64,000 bases of DNA from Rhodospirillales bacterium (GTDB lineage: Bacteria; Pseudomonadota; Alphaproteobacteria; SP197): the NCBI GenBank assembly GCA_014323865.1, contig JACONG010000016.1, positions 19,685 through 83,684 of the forward strand, written 5' to 3'. Positions 8,818 to 63,055 of the stretch are shown in pieces. The notes below the pieces were generated by a model that was not told where the DNA came from, made no database searches, and saw only the letters and a program-made list of their open reading frames with translations. Within the stretch, counting starts at the first letter, position 1. Every line of letters begins with the position of its first letter. The position numbers and the translations under genes were made by a program.

Positions 8818-10986
8818 ATGTTTACCATCCACAAGCAAGAGATCGTCTGGGGCGGACGCAAGCTGACGCTCGAGACGGGAAAGATCGCCCGGCAGGCCGA
8901 CGGCGCCGTCATGGCGACCTATGGCGACACGACCGTGCTGTGCACGGCGGTGGCCCAGAAGCAGTCCCGCGAGGGTATCGACTTTTTCCCGCTCACCGTG
9001 AACTACCAGGAAAAGGCGTTCGCGGCAGGCAAGATCCCCGGCGGCTTCTTCAAGCGTGAAGGCCGCCCGGCGGAAAAGGAAACCCTGGCTTCGCGCATCA
9101 TTGACCGGTCGATCCGGCCGCTCTTCGCGCCCGGGTTCCGCAACGAGACCCAGGTCATCTGCACCGTGCTGAGCCACGACCTCGAGAACGACCCCGACAT
9201 CGTCGCTCTGGTCGGTGCCTCGGCCGCACTCACCATGTCGGGCATTCCCTTCATGGGCCCGATCGGCGGTGCCCGTGTCGGCGTGGTCGACGGCGAGTAT
9301 ATGCTCAACCCGACGCTGGCCCATATGGCCGAGACCGACCTCGATCTCGTCGTCGCCGGCCGTTTGGACGCGGTGATGATGGTCGAATCGGAGGCCAGGG
9401 AGCTCTCCGAGGAGAAGATGCTGGGCGCAGTCATGTTCGCCCATCGCGAGTTCCAGCCGGTAATCCAAGCGATCATCGAACTGGCCGAGGCCTGCGCCAA
9501 GGAGCCCTGGGACCTGCCGGAGCCCGAGGATCACAGCGCGCTCGAAGCCAAGGTCAAGGAGCTCTGCGGCGACGCGCTCGCCGAGGCCTTCAGGGAGCCC
9601 GACAAGCTGGCCCGCCAGGACAAGGTCGCGGCAGCCAAGCAGATCGCCAGGGATCACTTCGCTGAGGACAAGGAGGTCGACGGCAACGTGCTCGCCGGCA
9701 TCCTGAAGGGCCTGGAGAAGTACACCCTGCGCGAGGCGACGCTTTCGACCGGCACCCGTGTCGACGGCCGCGATCTCAGCACGATCCGCCCGATCGTCTC
9801 GGAGGTCGGCGTTCTGAGTCGCAGTCACGGCTCGGCGCTCTTCACCCGTGGCGAGACCCAGGCGCTCGTGACCGCCACGCTGGGCACCGGCCAGGATGAG
9901 CAGATCATGGACGCGCTCGAGGGCGAATACCGCGAGCATTTCATGCTGCACTACAACTTCCCGCCCTACTCGGTCGGTGAGGCGAGCTTTCTGCGTTCGC
10001 CGGGCCGTCGCGAGATCGGCCACGGAAAGCTGGCTTGGCGGGCGATCCATCCGCTCCTGCCGGCCAAGGAAGACTTCCCCTACACGATCCGCGTGGTCTC
10101 CGAGATCACCGAGTCGAACGGCTCGAGCTCCATGGCCACCGTTTGTGGCACCTCACTCTCACTGATGGACGCCGGTGTTCCGCTCAAACGGCCCTGCGCC
10201 GGTATCGCCATGGGTCTTATCAAGGAAGACGAGCGCTTCGCGGTTCTGAGTGACATCCTGGGCGACGAGGACCACCTCGGCGACATGGACTTCAAGGTCG
10301 CGGGTACCGAGGAGGGTGTCACCAGCCTCCAGATGGACATCAAGATCGCCGGTATCACCGAGGAGATCATGAAGGTCGCGCTGGAGCAGGCCAAGGACGG
10401 ACGCCTGCACATCCTGGGCGAGATGGCCAAGGCCATTTCGGCCGGCCGTGAAACGCTGTCGGACTTCGCGCCGCGCATCACCACGATCTCGATCCCGACC
10501 GACAAGATCCGCGACATCATCGGCCCTGGCGGCAAGATGATCCGCGAGATCACCGAGAAGTCGGGCACCAAGATCGACATTGAGGACGACGGCACGATCA
10601 AGATCGCGTCGTCGGACAATGCCGCGACCGAGATCGCGCTGAAGCTGATCAAGGACATCGTGGCCGAGCCCGAGATCGGCGTGATCTACGACGGCACGGT
10701 CGTGAAGGTTATGGAGTTCGGCGCCTTCGTGAACTTCATCGGCAAGCGCGACGGCCTGGTCCACATCTCCGAACTCGCCGAGGGCCGTGTCGCCACGGTC
10801 AGCGACGTGGTGAGCGAGGGCGACACCGTGAAGGTCAAGGTGCTGGGCATCGACGACCGCGGCAAGATCAAGCTCTCCATGCGCGTCGTGAACCAGGAGA
10901 CCGGCGAGGACATCTCCGAGGAGATGGCCCAAAAGGACGCCCAGCGCCGCGCCGAACGCGAAGCCCGCAGAACCCGGCCAGTGTGA
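8818..10986 (+). CDS. pnp: Polyribonucleotide nucleotidyltransferase (PNPase)
   Basis: PNPase is a 3'-to-5' phosphorolytic exoribonuclease and component of the degradosome. It has 722 residues: two RNase PH domains separated by a helical domain, then a KH domain (Ile-Ile-Gly-Pro-Gly-Gly-Lys) and an S1 domain (Gly-Thr-Val-Val-Lys-Val ... Val-His-Ile-Ser-Glu-Leu). The ATG at 8818 follows a GGAAGAGGAAGAG purine-rich RBS; an in-frame start at 8767 would add a non-conserved leader. The 240-nt gap after rpsO holds no gene and probably carries leader RNA structure. Confidence 0.97.
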
Positions 10987-12529: not shown

Positions 12530-13100
12530 CCAGGGCACCTTGCCGAGGTTCATGATCCTCCGGGGCTCAAGAGCGGCCTTGATCGCCGTCATCGCGGCCA
12601 GTTTCTCGCCATCGCCCCGTTCCTTCAGGAAGGCGCGCTTCTCCAGTCCGATGCCGTGTTCGGCGCTGAACGAGCCGCCGGACCCGACGAGGCCGTCGAA
12701 GATCGTCGCATTGACAGGATCATGCAGCGCCGGGGCGACCGTGTCGGTCTTGGTGATGGTGAGGTTGAGATTGCCGTCGCCCAGATGGCCCATGGTGAAC
12801 AGCAGTAGATCGGGCTCGACCGTCTTCAACCGTGCGGCAGGACCTTGTCGATCTCCCGCCGCGCTCCTCGCGCACGGCCCACATGCGGTTGCGCTCGTCG
12901 ACATTCATGGCGAGCACCGCGTCAGAGGCTTCTTCAACCTCCAGCACATCGGCCAGGATTTCCTCGGGCACCTCCTAGGCGGCCTCGGCGTGTTCACCGG
13001 CGAGATCGACCAGCAGCAGGACATGACCGTTGGGTGCAAAGCCACCATCCGCCTTGTCGACCGCGGAATGCCCAGTATCGGCCTGCAACCCGCCGTTGTG
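12530..13100 (-). pseudogene. Decayed FAD-linked oxidase (GlcD / D-lactate dehydrogenase type), C-terminal half
   Basis: On the minus strand the segment 12875-13040 encodes a recognisable FAD-oxidase stretch (His-Val-Leu-Leu-Leu-Val-Asp-Leu-Ala-Gly-Glu-His, then Asp-Glu-Arg-Asn-Arg-Met-Trp-Ala-Val-Arg-Glu), interrupted by a stop. After a frame change, 12545-12840 encodes Gly-His-Leu-Gly-Asp-Gly-Asn-Leu-Asn-Leu, the Glu-His-Gly-Ile-Gly motif and the terminal Arg-Arg-Ile-Met-Asn-Leu-Gly-Lys-Val. The expected stop just after Gly-Lys-Val is missing, the region between the two blocks is shortened, and the FAD-binding N-terminal domain is absent. It is a nonfunctional relic. Confidence 0.8.
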
Positions 13101-20988: not shown

Positions 20989-21489
20989 CTACTTGGCTGA
21001 TGAAACCTGATCCTGCGGAAACTCGTCGTAAGTCCGACCTCCCAACTCACGACCCATTCGCTTCTTTTGCTTCCCGCCCCATTGCTTGAAGAAGAAGGCT
21101 GTCCGGTGATACCGACAAGACGTGAGGATCTCATCGACCCACTCGGGCTCCATTGGTCGCGCACCAGGGCCACTTTCACCCCCGACAATCGCCCAATGAA
21201 TATCCTTCAGATTCGGCGAACCAACCGCTCCGATCAGTGGTTCGAACGACACAAAGCGCACGACGCAATCGACCTGACGCAAGTGCTCGATGCGCCCAAG
21301 AAACTCACTGGTTTCGACACTGGTCCCAAGCCAGACATTCGGCAGGCGACCGAGACGCGGTGTGATTTGCTGCATCCGCTCCGGCCGTTTTGTCAGCACC
21401 TGATAGGTATGTTGCGGTGTCTCACTCATTACCTGCCAGACGCGTTTGATATCTTGTTCTGCAAGATCTTCATGAAGCAGGTCGCACAT
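20989..21489 (-). pseudogene. DUF5131 (phage Gp37/Gp68-like) protein, N-terminally truncated
   Basis: 166 residues matching the C-terminal two-thirds of DUF5131 proteins: Cys-Asp-Leu-Leu-His-Glu-Asp, Val-Leu-Thr-Lys-Arg-Pro-Glu-Arg-Met, Trp-Leu-Gly-Thr-Ser-Val-Glu, Val-Gly-Gly-Glu-Ser-Gly-Pro-Gly-Ala-Arg-Pro and Phe-Phe-Lys-Gln-Trp-Gly-Gly. Full-length members begin about 100 residues earlier with a Cys-rich radical-SAM-like motif. Here an in-frame TGA stands immediately before the Met and no upstream frame supplies that part. Base composition is lower in GC than the neighbours, suggesting transfer. Probably inactive. Confidence 0.75.
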
Positions 21490-21557
21490 CAATCAGTTTG
21501 ACTTTTTCACTTTACTCCCCTGCACAGATTTAGAGAAGAGGCAACGAGTTGCGCACC

Positions 21558-23243
21558 CTAATCCAGCACCGGAACAGCGTCTTCGGCCTTGACACGCCGC
21601 CGTGTCTTCTTGACCGGGGGTGGCACACGGGTCAACGCCCACTTCACGACGGTGCTTTCGCCGTTCAGCCCGCCGGAGATGACAACCTGCTGGCTGCGTT
21701 TCATCTGGCCGGTACCGAGATAGACGCTGTCGGTCAGCTCCAGCACACCGCCCGACATGCGCATGCGCCAGCCCTCGCCCGAGGGCAGGCGCAGGAGCGC
21801 GCCCTGGCCGTCCCGCACCACGGCGGCCTGGACATCGGGGTGGAGGTGGAAGCGCAGGGCGAACTTTGTGCCACCCGGGCCCTCGAGGACATCTTCGCCA
21901 CGCACATCCTCGCCGGTCGCCGAGAGGTAGAGCGAGCGGCGGTGCACCAGTCTGCCGAGCGGCCGGTAGCCGTCGTGGCTCAGGGTGAGCAGCACGGCGC
22001 CGTCTTCCTCGTCGCGCTCGACGGTCACGTTGCGGGGCGCGCGGCCCAGGCTGCCGTCCCTCCTGATCTCGACCGCGTTCTCGTCGTCGGCCGCCATGGT
22101 CGAGTGCGCGGCGGTCTCCCGCACAGCGGTGCGCCACGAGGCATCGGCGCCCTGCCAGGCACCCATGTTCACAATCAGCCGTTCCGGTCCGATGCTCATC
22201 TCGAAGGCGAGCGGTGCGGCATGGGCATGCGCGGCATAGTCGGAAGCAGGAGGCCCACCGGCATCGGCCAGGATCAGCGTCTTGCGTGCGCTGAGCCGCT
22301 CATAGCCCGTGTGCTGCGCCCGGCTGACCGGCTTGCCCGTGGCCTGGCCCATGGCGAGCACGTTGTCGATCAGCTCCGCGCTCTCCTCCGTGCCGCCGTT
22401 GAAGAGCGCCAGCGCCCCGTCGCCGTGGCGGTAGAAGCGCAGCATGGGGGCCGCCCGGTCGATGGTCTGCTGCAGCCAGTCGGGCACCGGCTTCTTGGCC
22501 TGGATCAGTGCAAGGCGGACGTCCACCAGGTCGCGCATGAGAAGAAACTGGACACTGGGATTGCGCTCGCGCTGGCCGCCGTCGGGCAGCATCTGACGAT
22601 TGAGCTCATGCTCCAGGAGCCGCATGGCCTGGGCAAAGCGTTTCTCCGCGCCCGGCAGCGTGAGGCCGGCATAAAGCAACGCCTTCACCGCGCCGATCCG
22701 ACCGAGACCCTCCGGTCCCGCATTCACGACCCGGGCGAGATGGCGGGTCTGTTCGGCCAGGCTCTGCAAAAACCGGCGACGGAACAGCGCATCGGCACCG
22801 TTCAGAAGAAACCCGCTATGCGTCGTCCAGGCGACCAACCTGCGACCGAGGATGTCGGCTCGCCAGGCAAACCGGTCCCAGCTGCCGCAATCGGCCATCC
22901 AGCCCGCCACGGCATGGCGCGCGGTTTGCCGCGAATCGCCGCCAGCTTCGCGCAGGTCACGCAGCCAGGTGAAGCCGTGAATCTCCTCGAGCCAGCCCGT
23001 CCAGGCGGCATCGGGATACCATTCGGGTGCATCGTCCCTGGGATCGAACTGCAGGGTCTGGCCGGCCAATCGCCAAATGCCGTCGGTCATCGCCCGACCG
23101 CGCGCCGCCTCACCCGGCCAGGGATCGGTCGGTGCCTGCAGAACCTGATCGGGCGCGCGGCCCAGCAGGGTCAGCCGGTAGAGCGGGCTGCCGTAGTAGA
23201 GCGCCTTCACGCTGCGCACCGGCCGAGAGAAGAGACCGCTCAT
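21558..23243 (-). CDS. Heparinase II/III-family protein
   Basis: A 561-residue protein with an N-terminal alpha/alpha toroid and a C-terminal beta-sandwich of the heparinase II/III type (Asn-Met-Gly-Ala-Trp-Gln-Gly, then Thr-Ala-Ala-His-Ser-Thr at about 390-400 and the His-Asp-Gly-Tyr motif). In alphaproteobacteria such genes commonly lie next to rpe and rsmB, as here. The substrate of this class is unproven; a polysaccharide lyase or envelope glycan role is plausible. No clear signal peptide. The ATG at 23243 is 22 nt after the rpe stop. Tail is Lys/Arg-rich. Confidence 0.8.
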   Translation of the reverse strand: MSGLFSRPVRSVKALYYGSPLYRLTLLGRAPDQVLQAPTDPWPGEAARGRAMTDGIWRLAGQTLQFDPRDDAPEWYPDAAWTGWLEEIHGFTWLRDLREAGGDSRQTARHAVAGWMADCGSWDRFAWRADILGRRLVAWTTHSGFLLNGADALFRRRFLQSLAEQTRHLARVVNAGPEGLGRIGAVKALLYAGLTLPGAEKRFAQAMRLLEHELNRQMLPDGGQRERNPSVQFLLMRDLVDVRLALIQAKKPVPDWLQQTIDRAAPMLRFYRHGDGALALFNGGTEESAELIDNVLAMGQATGKPVSRAQHTGYERLSARKTLILADAGGPPASDYAAHAHAAPLAFEMSIGPERLIVNMGAWQGADASWRTAVRETAAHSTMAADDENAVEIRRDGSLGRAPRNVTVERDEEDGAVLLTLSHDGYRPLGRLVHRRSLYLSATGEDVRGEDVLEGPGGTKFALRFHLHPDVQAAVVRDGQGALLRLPSGEGWRMRMSGGVLELTDSVYLGTGQMKRSQQVVISGGLNGESTVVKWALTRVPPPVKKTRRRVKAEDAVPVLD

Positions 23244-29194: not shown

Positions 29195-29660
29195 CCTCTT
29201 CCTCATCGGGGTTCCGGAAGCTCTCGATCTTCGCCTGCTGCTCGGCCGAGAGCACGGTATCGGTGGTCAGATGCGGCAGGCTGTGGAGGCCGTCGAACCG
29301 GGTGCGTTTGCTTTCAGCGCCGAAGGCGCGCGCGGGCGACACGCGATCGGGCTCGTCGAGGGACCCACAAGGTGAAGCCGATCCAGCTGTCGCCGTCGAA
29401 CCGAAACCAGAGCGGCGTGCCGCAATCACTGCAGAAGCCAGGCGTCATGATGCTGGAACTCTTGAACAGCTTGGGTTCGCCGTGAGTCCAGGCAAAACCG
29501 CAAGCCTTGACCGCGGCATAGGCAGCGATCGGCCCGCCCATCGCCTTCTGGCACATGCGGCAGTGACAGACATGCGGGTTCACGGGCTTGCGGTAGATTT
29601 CCTGACGCACGGCGCCGCACTGGAAGCCACCAGTCAAGACGGCGGGACCGACGCGCTTCA
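29195..29660 (-). pseudogene. GFA-domain (Mss4-like, zinc) protein, frameshifted
   Basis: The minus strand encodes a GFA domain: Thr-Gly-Gly-Phe-Gln-Cys-Gly-Ala-Val-Arg, Cys-His-Cys-Arg-Met-Cys-Gln-Lys, Gly-Phe-Cys-Ser-Asp-Cys-Gly-Thr, with zinc-binding cysteines intact. A one-base frameshift near 29365 separates Trp-Ile-Gly-Phe-Thr-Leu-Trp from the expected C-terminal Ser-Leu-Asp-Glu-Pro part. There is no start codon of its own: the frame runs in from the upstream membrane-protein remnant. Likely inactive. Confidence 0.75.
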
Positions 29661-32512: not shown

Positions 32513-32650
32513 ATGGGCGCTTCTCTCCGGGACAAGACCGCACTCGTGACCGGTGCGGCAAGCGGCATCGGTCGGGTGATGCCGGTGATGCCGGCGCCTT
32601 CACAACCGGCCAGGCCCTGGGACGTCAATGGCGGCTCGGCGATGCCCTGA
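32513..32650 (+). pseudogene. SDR gene reduced to its two ends by an internal deletion
   Basis: The first 21 codons from the ATG at 32513 give a perfect SDR start (Lys-Thr-Ala-Leu-Val-Thr-Gly-Ala-Ala-Ser-Gly-Ile-Gly-Arg). Only about 15 codons later the sequence matches an SDR C-terminus (Thr-Thr-Gly-Gln-Ala-Leu, then after one extra base Asp-Val-Asn-Gly-Gly-Ser-Ala-Met-Pro and a stop). About 200 codons are missing, including the catalytic Ser-Tyr-Lys. A 3-hydroxybutyrate-dehydrogenase-like ancestor is likely. Confidence 0.8.
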
Positions 32651-32729
32651 TACGGCCCGGGCCAGCGTGAGCTTGATCACCCGCACTTTCTGTGGCACAC
32701 TTCAGTTTCGTCTGCGAGGAGTGCAAGCC

Positions 32730-33630
32730 ATGGCTCATCGGTCTTTCATCCGGCCCGCGGTTTTTCTACTCATCGGTCTGCTTATTGGCGTCTCGCCGGC
32801 GGTCGCGCAGAATGGTGCTGCAGTATCATCAGTGGCGGAGCTTGAGGAGCAGCTAGAGAATCTGCGCAAACAGATCAATGATGCCAAGAATACTCCTGTT
32901 CTCGTCAAGATCCGCGATGACGCCAGCGGTTTCCAGTCGAAACTTAAGAGGGCGGCTGACGATGCAGAAGATCGATTTTTATATCTTCAAAGTGATCGGG
33001 AAAAAATCAGTTTTTTGGAAGACGAAATCGACTGGTATATGGATGAAATCGAAGATATTGAAGACGAAATCAGTTTTTTGGAAGACGAAATCGACTGGTA
33101 TATGGATGAAATCAAAGATATTGAAGACAAAATTATGCAGAATGAAGCACAGATTGCAGATATTGGGGGGGCGTGATGTCACGGAGACAGCGCTTAACGC
33201 TCTTCGGTCTGAACGGGCCAAGATTGCAGAACTTGGCGATGCATTCAAGCTTATCTTGAAGCAGATCGAAATTCGGAATGGCGAAATTATCGCCAAAGAG
33301 AACTTCCGCTTATGGGTTGCTGGTGGCTTCGGTTTGCTGGTGGCCCTTCTGATCTTTGGCCTTTTGTTGGTCGCCTTATTCAAGAAGGACATGGCGAATG
33401 CCATCTTCGGAACCGGTTCGGGACTGCAGTTTGTTGCCCTGTTTCTCATCCTGATTATCGTCGGCATGTTCGGCGTGTCGGAGATACTCGGGGACAAGGA
33501 ACTCGCGGCTATTCTGGCCGCGATCGCCGGCTATATCCTCGGCCGCTCGCAGACCGGAACCGACACGACTCAGAATGGCGACAGCGGCACGCCACAACCG
33601 GCCCCCGGCAATCCGGCCTCCGGCAGTTAG
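32730..33630 (+). CDS. Coiled-coil membrane protein split at a G7 tract (possible phase variation)
   Basis: Signal peptide (residues 1-27, ending Ala-Val-Ala-Gln), then Glu/Asp-rich coiled coil. A 63-bp tandem repeat (33004-33066, 33067-33129) encodes two copies of Ile-Ser-Phe-Leu-Glu-Asp-Glu-Ile-Asp-Trp-Tyr-Met-Asp-Glu. In the sequenced state translation ends at 33176, after 148 codons. Past a G7 run at 33165-33171, the next frame stays open to 33630 and continues the coiled coil into two hydrophobic helices (about 33310-33390 and 33425-33490) and a polar Gly/Pro tail. That part has no plausible start codon. Loss of one G would give a 299-residue protein. GC is lower than in neighbours. Family not recognised. 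Confidence 0.65.
33004..33129 (+). repeat. 63-bp tandem repeat, two copies, in coiled-coil gene
   Basis: Two adjacent in-frame 63-bp units that differ at only two positions (Glu/Lys and the last base). They encode a 21-residue coiled-coil unit. Near-identity implies recent duplication. Confidence 0.9.
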
Positions 33631-33663: not shown

Positions 33664-34765
33664 CTATCCCTTCGCCGTCTCGTAGAGGGCGTTGGCCAAG
33701 ACGCGGCAACCGGCCGCGAGACCGGCGGGCGTGGCGCGTTCGTCCTCGTTGTGGCCGATGCCGCCGGTGCTGGGCACGACGATCATGCCCGTGGGGCAGC
33801 ACGGCACCATGGACCTGGCGTCACGATCGGCACCCGACGGCATGGCCATCGCGGGAATGCCGGGTTCGCCCGCGATCCGCTCGACCGAGGCGATAACGCC
33901 GGGGTCAAAATCGGCGGGATCGCCCGCATGACGGCGCGAGACCGAAACCTCGCAGGGGCTTGCGTGGGCCGGGCGGAAAACTCGCGTTCCGGATGGCGGA
34001 AGCCGATCGTGAAAACCACCTTGCCGGGGATCGTGTCGGGCGACCCCGGATAGGCTTGGAAGCGACCCCACGGTGAAGCGCACCGTGTCCGTGGGATCGG
34101 CGAGATCCCGATGTAGCGCGTCGATGATGGCGTGTGCCGAGCGGAAGGCATCGCGCCGCTGGCCAAGCGGCACCGTGCCGGCGTGACCGTCGATGCCAGT
34201 CACCCTGACCTCGAAGCTCGAACCGCCCTGGATGCCGGTGACCGCACCCACCATGAGACCCTCGCTTTCGAGCCGGGGGCCCTGTTCGATATGAGCCTCG
34301 ATGTATCCCGCCATCGCGATCCCGCCGCACCGATGTTCGGCATCCGGTGTCACGGCAACAAGCGTGCGTTCGAGTTCGTCCTTCAGCACCGCACCGTCCG
34401 GAGCGGTAGCGTCCCACAGCTCCTCGATTGTGTGTCTGGTGGAGAACACAAGGCTTCCGGTACAGCCGGGTGCATAGCGGCAGCCTTCCTCGTTGGCCCA
34501 GACCACCGCCTCGACCGGGCGGCGGTGCCCGAGCCCACCGGCGGGCTGCGTGTCGAGATGTGAGCCCGACCGACAGCACGGCCTCGGCGTCGGGGCCGTC
34601 TTTGCGCACGAAGAGATTGCCGGCCTCGTCGGCGATCAGGCGAAAGCCGCGTTCGGCAGCCCAACCGGCCAGCGTGGCGCGCGCCTTGCCGTTATCCTCG
34701 GTGAGTGCCTGGCGGTTGACCCCGCCATTGCCAGTCCTGCCGAACTCGGCGATCCTGATTCGCAA
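33664..34765 (-). pseudogene. M20-family amidohydrolase (N-carbamoyl-amino-acid hydrolase/allantoate amidohydrolase type), broken
   Basis: Five blocks of an M20 hydrolase can be followed in three frames. The start, near 34765, is Met-Arg-Ile-Arg-Ile-Ala-Glu-Phe-Gly-Arg-Thr; Ser-His-Leu-Asp-Thr-Gln-Pro-Ala-Gly-Gly needs removal of one inserted base; then Val-Val-Trp-Ala-Asn-Glu-Glu-Gly; then Gly-Gly-Ser-Ser-Phe-Glu-Val and Asp-Gly-His-Ala-Gly-Thr-Val-Pro; two more frame changes follow near 34080 and 33950 before an intact C-terminus. About 30 residues between Gly-Gly and the Trp-Ala-Asn-Glu-Glu block are deleted, including the bridging Asp-Gly of the metal site. Nonfunctional. Confidence 0.85.
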
Positions 34766-35243: not shown

Positions 35244-35380
35244 CGTGCATCTCCCTGATGTTGCCCGAAACCTACCAGCGCGGTCCCCGGCAACAAGCAC
35301 ATCAGGGGCATTTCCCGACCGACGGAACGAGCCTGGTCTTCGGATCATGTCCGATTCCGTTCTCACTCCCGACCGAGGCC

Positions 35381-36028
35381 ATGGCCAAGGCCGCGCCCAT
35401 CACCCGGCGCGCGCTGAAAGCCCTGATGAAGCGCTCGAATGTACCAGCGCTGATGCGCCTGCCGCTCTGGCTCGGCCTGCTCGGCTGCACGGGCACACTG
35501 ATCCGGCTGGCGATGGGCATCTGGTGGATGGTAACGGCGATGTTCGTGCACGGCATGGTCATGGTTCGTCACTTCTCGCTGCAGCATGAGTGTATCCACT
35601 TCACCTGCTTCCGCACCCGCAGGGTCAACGAATGGGTGGCGCACTGGTGCGGCCTGGTGATCTGCGATCCGGCGATCTACTTCCGCTGCGAACACTGCGA
35701 CCACCATACCCAGGTCGTGGGCCGCGATCCCGAGCTGATCCCCCTAGCCGACAGCGTCTGGGGCCACCTCGAACCGGACGACATCACGCCGGTCAAACAT
35801 GCGGGCCGCCGGCTTGCCGTCTACAACGCCACCGACGCCCGCCGCAGTCATGGCGGCGCCGATCTCTGCGACGGCTATCTCGACGGCCCCCTGATCGAAG
35901 GCCCCCTGCACCAAGGCTTCTTCGACATCCACACCGGAGAAGCCAGGGGCCGACCCGCGACAAGACCCATCAAGGTGCTCACGTGCCGCGTTCACGACGG
36001 CATGGTGCGGATCAGGTCTGAAGGATGA
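35381..36028 (+). pseudogene. Chimera: fatty-acid-desaturase N-terminus joined to a Rieske ferredoxin lacking its cysteines
   Basis: The first 130 residues are a membrane desaturase with two helices and the boxes His-Glu-Cys-Ile-His and Glu-His-Cys-Asp-His-His. The third His box and second membrane pair are missing. From about 35773 the protein switches to a Rieske-type ferredoxin (Asp-Ile-Thr-Pro-Val-Lys-His-Ala-Gly-Arg-Arg-Leu-Ala-Val-Tyr). The expected Cys-x-His and Cys-x-x-His ligands read Arg-Ser-His and Gly-Pro-Leu-His: both histidines remain and both cysteines are replaced, so no 2Fe-2S cluster can form. A deletion between two genes best explains it. Confidence 0.8.
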
Positions 36029-52341: not shown

Positions 52342-52377
52342 CCGACCTCCCTCCGAGGCACGCTGGGTCCAAGGGCG

Positions 52378-52548
52378 GAACGGGGAGGTCTCCTGGCTCC
52401 GGATTGCAGACCACCGAGGCCCCTTCCCGGGCGGCGTCTTCATGCGCCGTCCAGTGGGATCGTGCCTCGCGTCTCACCGTTACAGTTGCGGGGGCAGCGC
52501 CGGCTTGGGAGCGAACTCCGCACCGGCTTCCCTCGTCACGTTCCAAGG
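52378..52548 (-). promoter_or_regulatory. Cobalamin (AdoCbl) riboswitch
   Basis: The minus strand shows the conserved class I elements in order: a GAAGCCGGTGCG-type paired entry, GCGCTGCCCCCGCAACTG (B12 box partner), GGTGAG, a CCACTGG, and GCCAGGAGACC close to the end. It is 40 nt upstream of cobP. AdoCbl binding normally hides the RBS or promotes termination, so high B12 should lower cobP-W-N-O-SYLF-cobQ expression. The other cob groups show no such leader in this window. Confidence 0.95.
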
Positions 52549-52701
52549 GACTTCGTTTATCAGAGTTGCCGACCGAGTACCAAGGAGATTAGGCGACGTG
52601 GTGGTTTCCGCAGATGAGAACAAAAAACGAATTGCTTCTACGCGTATGCCCTGCGATCCTTCTGTTTGGTGCAAGGATTGGCGGATTAGAGCGGATTAGA
52701 A

Positions 52702-53364
52702 ATGCACTCCGAAAACTCAGTTCATGCTGCTAGCGAAGATCTCCTCCGATTTGTTGGAGAACAGAAATTCTCGACAATCTTGGCCGATCCTCCTTGGCGG
52801 TTCGTGAATCGAACCGGAAAGATGGCACCAGAGCATCGACGCCTGTCGCGCTATGAAACCTTATCAACAGAGGAGATTGCGACACTGCCTATCAGTAAAA
52901 TATCACAACCGACTGCACATCTCTATCTTTGGGTCCCGAACGCCTTACTTCCTGAAGGTTTGATAGTGTTGGATGCGTGGGGATTCAATTACAAGTCGAA
53001 TCTGATTTGGCATAAAATCAGGAAAGATGGCGGTTCAGATGGACGTGGCGTTGGCTTTTACTTTAGAAACGTCACAGAGATGCTGCTTTTCGGGGTAAGA
53101 GGAAAGAATGCGCGCACACTTCCTCCCGGTCGTCGCCAAGTGAACATGGTCCAAGCGCGAAAACGCGAGCACTCACGCAAGCCTGACGAGCAGTACGCGA
53201 TTATCGAGGAATGCAGTTGGGGCCCCTTTTTAGAGCTGTTTGGAAGGGGAGAGAGAGATGGTTGGTCCACTTGGGGCAACCAGGCTGATTCAAACTATCA
53301 GCCCTCTTGGCCAACTTACAGTTACAACTCGACAAGAATTCTGGAAGTCGAGGACCCAGTTTAG
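52702..53364 (+). CDS. MT-A70-family DNA adenine-N6 methyltransferase
   Basis: A 220-residue MT-A70 methyltransferase. Catalytic Ala-Asp-Pro-Pro-Trp-Arg-Phe (about 29-35) and the later Val-Thr-Glu-Met-Leu-Leu-Phe-Gly-Val-Arg-Gly, Ser-Arg-Lys-Pro-Asp-Glu-Gln-Tyr and Phe-Gly-Arg-Gly-Glu-Arg-Asp-Gly-Trp motifs are intact. The gene has clearly lower GC and different codon use from its neighbours and sits in a 1.3-kb island between the riboswitch and cobC. The convergent partner, probably a restriction enzyme, is broken, so the methyltransferase is now an orphan. Weak RBS; ATG directly follows GGATTAGA. Confidence 0.88.
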   Translation: MHSENSVHAASEDLLRFVGEQKFSTILADPPWRFVNRTGKMAPEHRRLSRYETLSTEEIATLPISKISQPTAHLYLWVPNALLPEGLIVLDAWGFNYKSNLIWHKIRKDGGSDGRGVGFYFRNVTEMLLFGVRGKNARTLPPGRRQVNMVQARKREHSRKPDEQYAIIEECSWGPFLELFGRGERDGWSTWGNQADSNYQPSWPTYSYNSTRILEVEDPV

Positions 53365-53771
53365 ATATCTTCTACATAGAGAGCGTCTGTAATAGCGAAG
53401 GTGAAAACCGGGCATCCACCACCTCCCCCTCCATCGAGTCTTGGCCATAATTTCGTATGGTGCGTAGTAGATGCCCCGTACGAGCTACCCTTGCCGAGTG
53501 AGTTAAATATATCTTGATAGTCGTACCGAACTGCTTCTCTTCCCATTCTAGCTAGATCGTAGAATGTGCTATCAATCCGCTTTGCAATTGGAGATTTTCA
53601 TCCATCTGGTGCGATGATTTCAGACTTGAGCAACTTGAACTCTCTTAGAACCGTGAGAATCTGTTCCCACTCTTCCGGACAAGCGGCTGCGAGGACACCG
53701 GTCGCGTTTCGCCATTCTTTGATTAGGTATAAATCGGCGATATCTTCTGGGATCAGGTGAGTGGTGCTCAT
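53361..53771 (-). pseudogene. Degenerate partner of the MT-A70 gene, BglII-type restriction endonuclease-like
   Basis: From the ATG at 53771 an N-terminal piece (Ile-Pro-Glu-Asp-Ile-Ala-Asp-Leu-Tyr, then Ile-Ala-Pro-Asp-Gly) ends at a TGA (53598-53600). Past that, the same frame continues Lys-Ser-Pro-Ile-Ala-Lys-Arg-Ile-Asp-Ser, then jumps to a C-terminal block (Gly-Ala-Ser-Thr-Thr-His, Gly-Gly-Gly-Gly-Gly-Gly-Cys-Pro-Val) that recalls BglII/BstYI-like endonucleases. About 137 codons remain against roughly 190-220, so the central catalytic region is gone. The family call is from memory of motifs. Confidence 0.6.
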
Positions 53772-56926: not shown

Positions 56927-57150
56927 TTACTCAATGTAGGTGGCATGACTCGCCGCGGGTGCCGCCTCGGGCGGTTCACCACCCGCGGCAAGCGCAGCCG
57001 CCGCAGCGATCAGGGCCTGACACTGCGCGAGATCGAGGCCCTCGCGCATGGCTTTGGTGACACAGTCGCAATAGGCCAGCCCCTTCACCAGCACGACGCC
57101 ATGCTGGTCGGCGACCACCCGCTCGAACACTGCACGCGTCACGATTCCTG
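56927..57150 (-). pseudogene. C-terminal remnant of an unknown protein
   Basis: The minus strand ends at 56927 with an Ala-rich tail after a conserved-looking stretch (Val-Val-Leu-Val-Lys-Gly-Leu-Ala-Tyr-Cys-Asp-Cys-Val-Thr-Lys-Ala-Met). About 70 codons look coding, then the plus-strand Rieske relic begins at about 57140. I do not recognise the family. Confidence 0.35.
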
Positions 57151-57618
57151 GTTTCTCGACTTCGACGCCAACTAAAAGATCTACCTGGAGAACTACGTCG
57201 AGAGTGATCACGTGTCCTCGGTCCATCCAGCCTTGAACGCCGAACTGGTGCCCTGCACCTTCACGACCAAGGCCGGCGGCCTCTACGAGGGTCTGTGGAA
57301 CTGGACCTGGCCGGCCTTCACATTGTGCTCTTCCACAGCGGCTACGACGTCAGCCGCATCTGCTCGCTGGGCCCGGAGAAGACGAGGGTTCACTTCGACT
57401 TCTTCGTCGATCCCGAAGCCGGCCTCACGGATGACCAAAAGGCTGCCACCTCGAAGGGCGTGCACGACCTTGTCGCCGAAGACACGGCAATCAGCGAAGC
57501 CGTCCACGCCAATCTCACCTCCGGCGTCTTCCCCGGCGGCTCCCTCGGCGCAAGGCACGAAGAAGGCATCGCCCCACGTGATGGGGGCATGAGGGTGAAG
57601 GTGGAGACGACGGGGTGA
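57140..57618 (+). pseudogene. Rieske oxygenase alpha-subunit catalytic domain, broken
   Basis: The plus strand carries Phe-Leu-Asp-Phe-Asp-Ala-Asn, a stop where Trp is expected, then Lys-Ile-Tyr-Leu-Glu-Asn-Tyr-Val-Glu-Ser-Asp-His-Val and His-Pro-Ala-Leu-Asn-Ala-Glu-Leu (iron ligands of the mononuclear site region), Gly-Leu-Tyr-Glu-Gly-Leu-Trp-Asn-Trp-Thr. A frame change near 57300 leads to the C-terminal Gly-Pro-Glu-Lys-Thr-Arg-Val and Gly-Val-Phe-Pro-Gly-Gly. The N-terminal Rieske domain is absent. Confidence 0.8.
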
Positions 57619-58650: not shown

Positions 58651-59169
58651 AAACGATGGGCGCTGCGGTAACCCTGCATCATCGGCTCCAGCATGAAGCG
58701 GTCCCCCGCCGATGGTCTCGTGGAACAGATCGACGGCGCGGTCGACCGCGCTCTGTGGCCACTGATCGCCCCAGAACAGGAGCCCCGCCTCGTAACGCAC
58801 CTGGTCGGTGCCTTCGGGCTGCAGGCAGAGGGCTGTAGTCGGCAGCAAGGCCGATACCGCTGCCCGGCTGCATCATCGCCATGATGCAGGTGTTGGACTG
58901 GTCCTTTGTCAGGTGCGGATGACGCCGTCGCAGCCGTGGGTGATCACCATCGGCTCTTTCGCCAGCCGGTAGGGCATGAACTGGCCGGGCCCGGCGAGCT
59001 TCTCGACCCGGCCGACGCAGTGCCATTCCTTCTTGAAGAGATGCTCGACCTCGAGCGCCAGAAGATCGGGAGCGGTGTAGAAATCCGCGTGCATGGTCCA
59101 GGCCCGGTCGTGGCTCGATTGCAGGGTGCCCTCAAGCGCCGCTTTCACCCTGGCAAGCCCCTCGGTCAT
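58650..59169 (-). pseudogene. Rieske oxygenase alpha subunit reduced to its two ends
   Basis: From the ATG at 59169 an intact N-terminus (His-Ala-Asp-Phe-Tyr-Thr-Ala-Pro-Asp-Leu-Leu, Lys-Lys-Glu-Trp-His-Cys-Val-Gly-Arg) runs 87 codons to a stop at 58909. Then comes a C-terminal block (Ala-Leu-Cys-Leu-Gln-Pro-Glu-Gly-Thr-Asp, Phe-Trp-Gly-Asp-Gln-Trp and, after a frameshift in a G5 run near 58710, Met-Gln-Gly-Tyr-Arg-Ser). The Rieske cluster motifs and the iron site are deleted. It fuses into the macrodomain remnant. Confidence 0.8.
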
Positions 59170-62586: not shown

Positions 62587-62808
62587 GGTGTGATCTCTTC
62601 TCTTCGGGCGACAGGTTGCCACACGGGGCGACAGTTAGGGAGGCCACATCCAAATCTGTTCGCGGTCAACCAAAACCTGACACATGCCGATGCTTCTGGA
62701 ACAAGAACACTCATGATTCAGTTGCGCCGCCTCTCGCACCAAACCGGGTCGATCTAAACAGCAATCTCCCGTTGTTGTTACCATGATCTGAGGATTGAGA
62801 GTGCTTGA

Positions 62809-63055
62809 ATGAGATATCCCGATGGAACTGAAGCCAGATTGGGTGATCGTGTGCGATTGCCTAGTGGTGTATGCGGAATTATTGCTCTTTCTTTTAATAC
62901 AGATAAATAATCTTCAGATTTTTCCCAAGGAAGACTGGAGTTACCTGGCGAGATGTGTAATGATAAAGACGAATCAAGGGGTTCTCATATGCTATGAAGA
63001 CCCAAATGGAATCGAGGCCCCGGCGCGGCAGCCCTTCGGGCCTGTGCCGGGGTAA
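62809..63055 (+). pseudogene. Small conserved protein (Imm-like/KOW-like leader), nonsense plus frameshift
   Basis: The N-terminal part (Met-Arg-Tyr-Pro-Asp-Gly-Thr-Glu-Ala-Arg-Leu-Gly-Asp-Arg-Val) resembles a small family beginning Tyr-Pro-Asp-Gly. It runs to a TAA at 62908 where Tyr is expected, and after an extra T in a T5 run the next frame continues (Phe-Pro-Lys-Glu-Asp-Trp-Ser-Tyr-Leu, Gly-Val-Leu-Ile-Cys-Tyr-Glu-Asp). AT-rich segment, likely transferred. Family memory is vague; the two-frame continuity is the firm part. Confidence 0.6.

Follow-up and report, generated by a model that had tools for sequence, protein, structure and literature searches.

The broken gene and its frame junction

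The window (the whole 64-kb stretch of DNA that was analyzed) contains two reading frames on the forward strand that change over at a run of seven Gs. We refer to them together as the broken gene. Its parts are as follows.

32730-33176 (+): 5' part of the broken gene, coding for a signal peptide and an acidic coiled coil (148 codons from ATG 32730)
33003-33128 (+): 63-bp in-frame tandem duplication (21 aa, three heptads), with 61/63 bases identical
33165-33171 (+): G7 tract, the site of the +1 frame change, which encodes Gly-Gly
33163-33630 (+): 3' part in the +1 frame, coding for the end of the coiled coil, two membrane helices, a GYILGR motif, and a hydrophilic tail

The upstream frame (frame 0) is preceded by GAGGAG at 32716-32721 and ends with ...QIADIGGA. 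Its TGA stop (33174-33176) begins three bases past the G7 run; no other G or C run in the window reaches a length of 7. The +1 frame reads on as far as 33630. A preliminary description of this DNA had placed a G7 run exactly at the frame junction, and this proved correct. It had also described the second frame as lacking a start codon. That claim does not hold as worded, because TTG 33163, at the tract, and ATG 32878 are both candidate starts, but no Shine-Dalgarno-like site was seen ahead of the TTG. The further proposal that gain or loss of one G would toggle between two forms stands for the loss and fails for the gain. The frames are joined only by a tract that is one base shorter or two bases longer, and one additional G instead shifts reading into a third frame, which closes after 27 codons. 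The two copies of the 63-bp repeat differ at only 2 of 63 sites, in keeping with the earlier reading of this duplication as recent slippage. We looked for a second stop or frameshift in both halves of the broken gene and found none.

A frame-switch model, codon-position composition, and an internal repeat all locate the break at the tract or close to it. The model, which is based on codon positions, was trained outside 33003-33261 and run unconstrained, using neither the tract nor the stop. The switch it favored most was at 33174, the interval 33161-33180 took 69% of the weight, and the log-likelihood rose by 12.9 relative to remaining in frame 0 and by 21.4 relative to reading only the +1 frame. 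The low G+C content of codon position 2 shifts by one base at G7. Finally, the motif AGATTGCAGATATTGG (33151) is repeated as AGATTGCAGAACTTGG (33221) at a spacing of 70 nt, or 3n+1, and reads QIADIGG in frame 0 and KIAELGD in the +1 frame. Peptides of a read-through product would span the junction sequence QIADIGGRDVTETALNALR.

The hydropathy profile of the joined protein peaks at a signal peptide (residues 7-25) and two membrane helices (residues 199-217 and 235-253). A low-confidence structure model (mean pLDDT 52) shows an all-helical chain in which two long helices are separated by a loop containing the Gly-Gly of the tract; it was given no weight beyond these two features.

Relatives and the unbroken form

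A search of Pseudomonadota genomes returned one clear relative, L046 from genome G604, with 44% identity over the two-helix core (E 9.4e-17). Alignment of the core led to a second, L062 from Ningiella ruwaisensis (Alteromonadaceae), with 43% identity. L047 is a weak, possible third relative. In both L046 (294 aa) and L062 (306 aa), a single frame encodes the signal peptide, the coiled coil, and both membrane helices, giving a family length of about 280-306 residues. For comparison with these relatives, we joined the window protein through the tract. The joined protein aligned with each relative in a single HSP that crosses the junction (L046, E 1.6e-24, residues 43-278; L062, E 5.6e-23, residues 26-278). 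These HSPs support the earlier claim that the coiled coil continues into the second frame, which adds two membrane helices. A single coiled-coil, two-helix membrane protein split between the two frames is thus supported.

The window copy has the two-helix core and the KEL...GYILGR motif of the L046/L062 family, along with the same architecture and length. Its signal peptide and coiled coil lie in the same chain as the core solely when the two frames are joined. The relatives are unbroken, whereas the window copy has the G7 break and the 63-bp duplication and resides in a G+C-rich host genome. A full frame in relatives and a disrupted copy here is the pattern of a pseudogene created by frameshift. 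Because two distant relatives are each encoded in one frame and align across the junction, the long form is ancestral and the G7 allele a frameshift. The preliminary description had named relatives that never have the long form intact as evidence that would count against it; L046 and L062 are intact, an outcome in its favor. On these alignments, the long form is the normal product of the family.

Searches for other matches added little to the family. In Pfam, NCBIfam, and PHROGs, the first half returned coiled-coil background only. The membrane half gave nothing in PHROGs, no match above the curated cut-off in Pfam, and none in NCBIfam. Nothing was found in the PDB by sequence (membrane half) or by fold, and no relative was found in phages, plasmids, or IMG/VR. 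Other weak Pseudomonadota matches (transporters, a glycosyltransferase-like protein, and shadow frames) were rejected as chance matches to membrane helices or overlapping frames. A G287 match from a class-wide search belongs to a protein of 1000+ residues and was also rejected as chance. We found no conserved operon partner: the genes next to L046 are not those next to L062, and this genome lacks the 108-aa partner of L046.

Surroundings and other G/C runs

The broken gene looks horizontally acquired because its G+C content is 51% (46% in the first half) compared with 65% for the window and because it is absent from all nine congeners in which it was sought. The lowest G+C of any 400-bp stretch in the window (42%) also falls in this gene. 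The preliminary description had likewise called its composition foreign-looking. Among 385 genomes of the class, the gene is absent from nearly all. The congeners carry a transporter, a short-chain dehydrogenase, and an M20 peptidase in succession and close together, without such a gene. In the window, the broken gene sits between damaged versions of the last two.

32513-32650 (+): short-chain dehydrogenase remnant that keeps the first ~24 and last ~20 residues, with ~200 residues deleted plus a frameshift
33667-34759 (-): M20-type peptidase pseudogene in two frames with an internal deletion

The dehydrogenase is intact in four congeners (G002, G004, G005, and G009), and the peptidase forms intact frames of 420-434 aa in congeners. 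The genome measures 2.8 Mb at a completeness of 99.9%, compared with 3.5-4.5 Mb in the congeners. Since both neighbors and several other window genes are broken and the genome is smaller than those of its congeners, the gene lies in an eroding stretch.

Other features of the window were recorded alongside this gene. Genes that are intact in congeners are frameshifted or truncated at 12536-13040 (-), 29205-29646 (-), 35348-36028 (+), 57104-57573 (+), and 58653-59169 (-). At 35369-36025, the start of a fatty-acid desaturase continues into a Rieske-like domain, perhaps as a deletion fusion. Further patches of low G+C, which may be foreign inserts, occur at 53266-53665 (46%), 62616-63015 (46%), and 21184-21583 (53%). 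A cobalamin riboswitch (Rfam RF00174, 74 bits) lies at 52366-52588 (-).

We examined about 54 G/C runs of at least 7 in the genome, stretch by stretch, a set that covers all but a few such runs. Only two of them split gene bodies: the window G7 and a G8 in a second gene, L093. Runs of 7-10 G/C leave the frames intact in GcvP, an Mrp antiporter subunit, a PgeF/laccase family protein, a class-III aminotransferase, MurA, and EF-P. Several apparent frame changes at runs were gene borders, such as mraZ/rsmH, murE/murF, and hemB and its next gene. G7+ runs are otherwise far rarer than a first-order model predicts, with 6 observed and 55 expected at length 7.

L093:359-1949 (G000:C4:112859-114449): gene for a foreign secreted protein with repeated domains, with G8 at L093:964-971 (G000:C4:113464-113471)

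The L093 gene has a G+C content of 54% and codes for a signal peptide. Frame 0 stops right after the G8, and the +1 frame goes on (SEGGRNVAIRKVV...), a shift in the same direction as in the window gene. A paralogous copy of the repeat downstream confirms the joined reading. N20 gaps occur farther down the gene. Both frame-breaking runs share GGG GGG GCG TRA TGT C (downstream CGTRATGTC), and their downstream bases are the most similar among 1275 pairs of G7+ runs (8/9, 9/11). The only exact matches to the pattern GGGGGCGTRATGTC in the genome are the window and L093 sites. Both sites came to our notice through a stop codon that is itself part of this pattern, and the pattern was built from them; for these reasons, and because the L093 gene has assembly gaps, we give the shared context modest weight.

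Long runs were also seen at other loci. A lipoprotein resembling the L093 protein (L072:10315-10983, -) contains a C20 at 10907-10926 (G000:C16:430907-430926). On the coding strand, this G20 run lies in frame just after the lipobox Cys and encodes a poly-Gly linker, making it a candidate hypermutable tract. G16 and C11 runs at L085:987-1022 and L086:957-987 adjoin 20-N scaffold gaps and are likely sequencing or assembly artefacts.

Explanations for the frame change

We favor, with confidence somewhat above even, the explanation that a recent slippage frameshift struck a foreign envelope-protein gene whose ancestral form was whole and that the gene is most likely simply off. The ancestral product would have been one chain with a signal peptide, a periplasmic coiled coil, and two C-terminal membrane helices predicted to anchor it. 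After horizontal acquisition, the gene would have been frameshifted at the G7 encoding the Gly-Gly turn, presumably by replication slippage, in a genome that is losing genes. The G7 allele would give an acidic coiled coil of 148 residues that is secreted but lacks its anchor, and the membrane part would go untranslated, with probable loss of function. The frameshift may be revertible, with revertants arising at a low rate. The break looks recent because 150 codons remain open after the tract, as do 0.35% of mononucleotide shuffles. Two observations count against plain breakage. The 3' part lacks a second lesion, and a switchable or recoded gene would look alike. The L093 gene is broken in the same manner and carries the same motif downstream, and plain decay does not predict such a pair.

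Under phase variation, the G tract would be kept, and strand slippage would toggle the product between a truncated secreted form and an anchored form, as at the poly-G contingency loci of Neisseria and Campylobacter. The sole gene-body breakers among the runs examined both occur in foreign genes coding for signal peptides, the L072 lipoprotein carries its G20 after the lipobox Cys, and G7+ runs are otherwise scarce. We nevertheless consider phase variation unlikely. The G7 may be a slippage-prone repeat at the frame break, but its length barely reaches the threshold, at the lower limit of the usual range, where slippage only begins to count. The genome also contains mutS, and decay is widespread around the gene. 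Seven is also the limit applied to meningococcal tracts, with shorter G/C tracts classed as weak and not over-represented (PMC5084427). For mga, a change from C8 to C7 failed to qualify as phase variation for lack of spontaneous reversion (PMC11868660).

If the gene were instead recoded, a +1 ribosome slip on GGG or slippage of RNA polymerase on the G run would produce both forms at a fixed ratio. The sequence shared by the two frame-breaking runs, the closest downstream match of all pairs compared, speaks for recoding. Also counted in its favor was transcriptional slippage on A or T tracts, which has been inferred for frameshifted genes in the reduced genomes of Blochmannia (PMC3017870). Against this, the shared pattern was derived from the two sites themselves, stop codon included, and L046 and L062 need no frameshift. 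We know of no +1 recoding signal of this form, and seven Gs are short for transcriptional slippage. We judge recoding to be improbable, and marginally more so the broader proposal that a small set of foreign envelope-protein genes carries a common G-tract element (G7-8 then CGTRATGTC) with a +1 change, at which slippage or recoding yields truncated and full-length forms. An assembly or sequencing error, in which the true tract length differs and the gene is intact, seems no likelier to us than recoding. The sequence is known from a single assembly, and the G16 and C11 at N20 gap edges show that poly-G artefacts occur at scaffold ends. However, the window contains no N gap and the tract is not near any gap, and the neighboring breaks include large deletions rather than homopolymer errors. 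Such an error is unlikely because no other checked G/C run of at least 7 inside a conserved gene, including the runs of 7-10 listed above, breaks its frame.

If the break is no more than a frameshift, as we favor, it shows what becomes of an acquired envelope gene as its host genome shrinks, and it calls attention to a small family of coiled-coil membrane proteins that has yet to be described. Should the tract act as a switch or a recoding site, an uncultured G+C-rich lineage would gain a poly-G contingency or recoding element, with L093 as a second gene.

The locus can be compared with two kinds of known systems. Like the poly-G contingency loci of Neisseria and Campylobacter, it has a G tract in the coding region of an envelope-protein gene and a frame change at that tract; unlike them, its tract is just 7 long and is known from one assembly. 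Like the homopolymer frameshifts of Blochmannia and of mga in group A streptococci (C8/C7), it has a single homopolymer indel in a gene that is otherwise in frame, and, as in Blochmannia, the reduced genome contains other pseudogenes. It differs from these cases in that the tract consists of G in an acquired gene of a G+C-rich genome, rather than poly-A in an ancestral gene.
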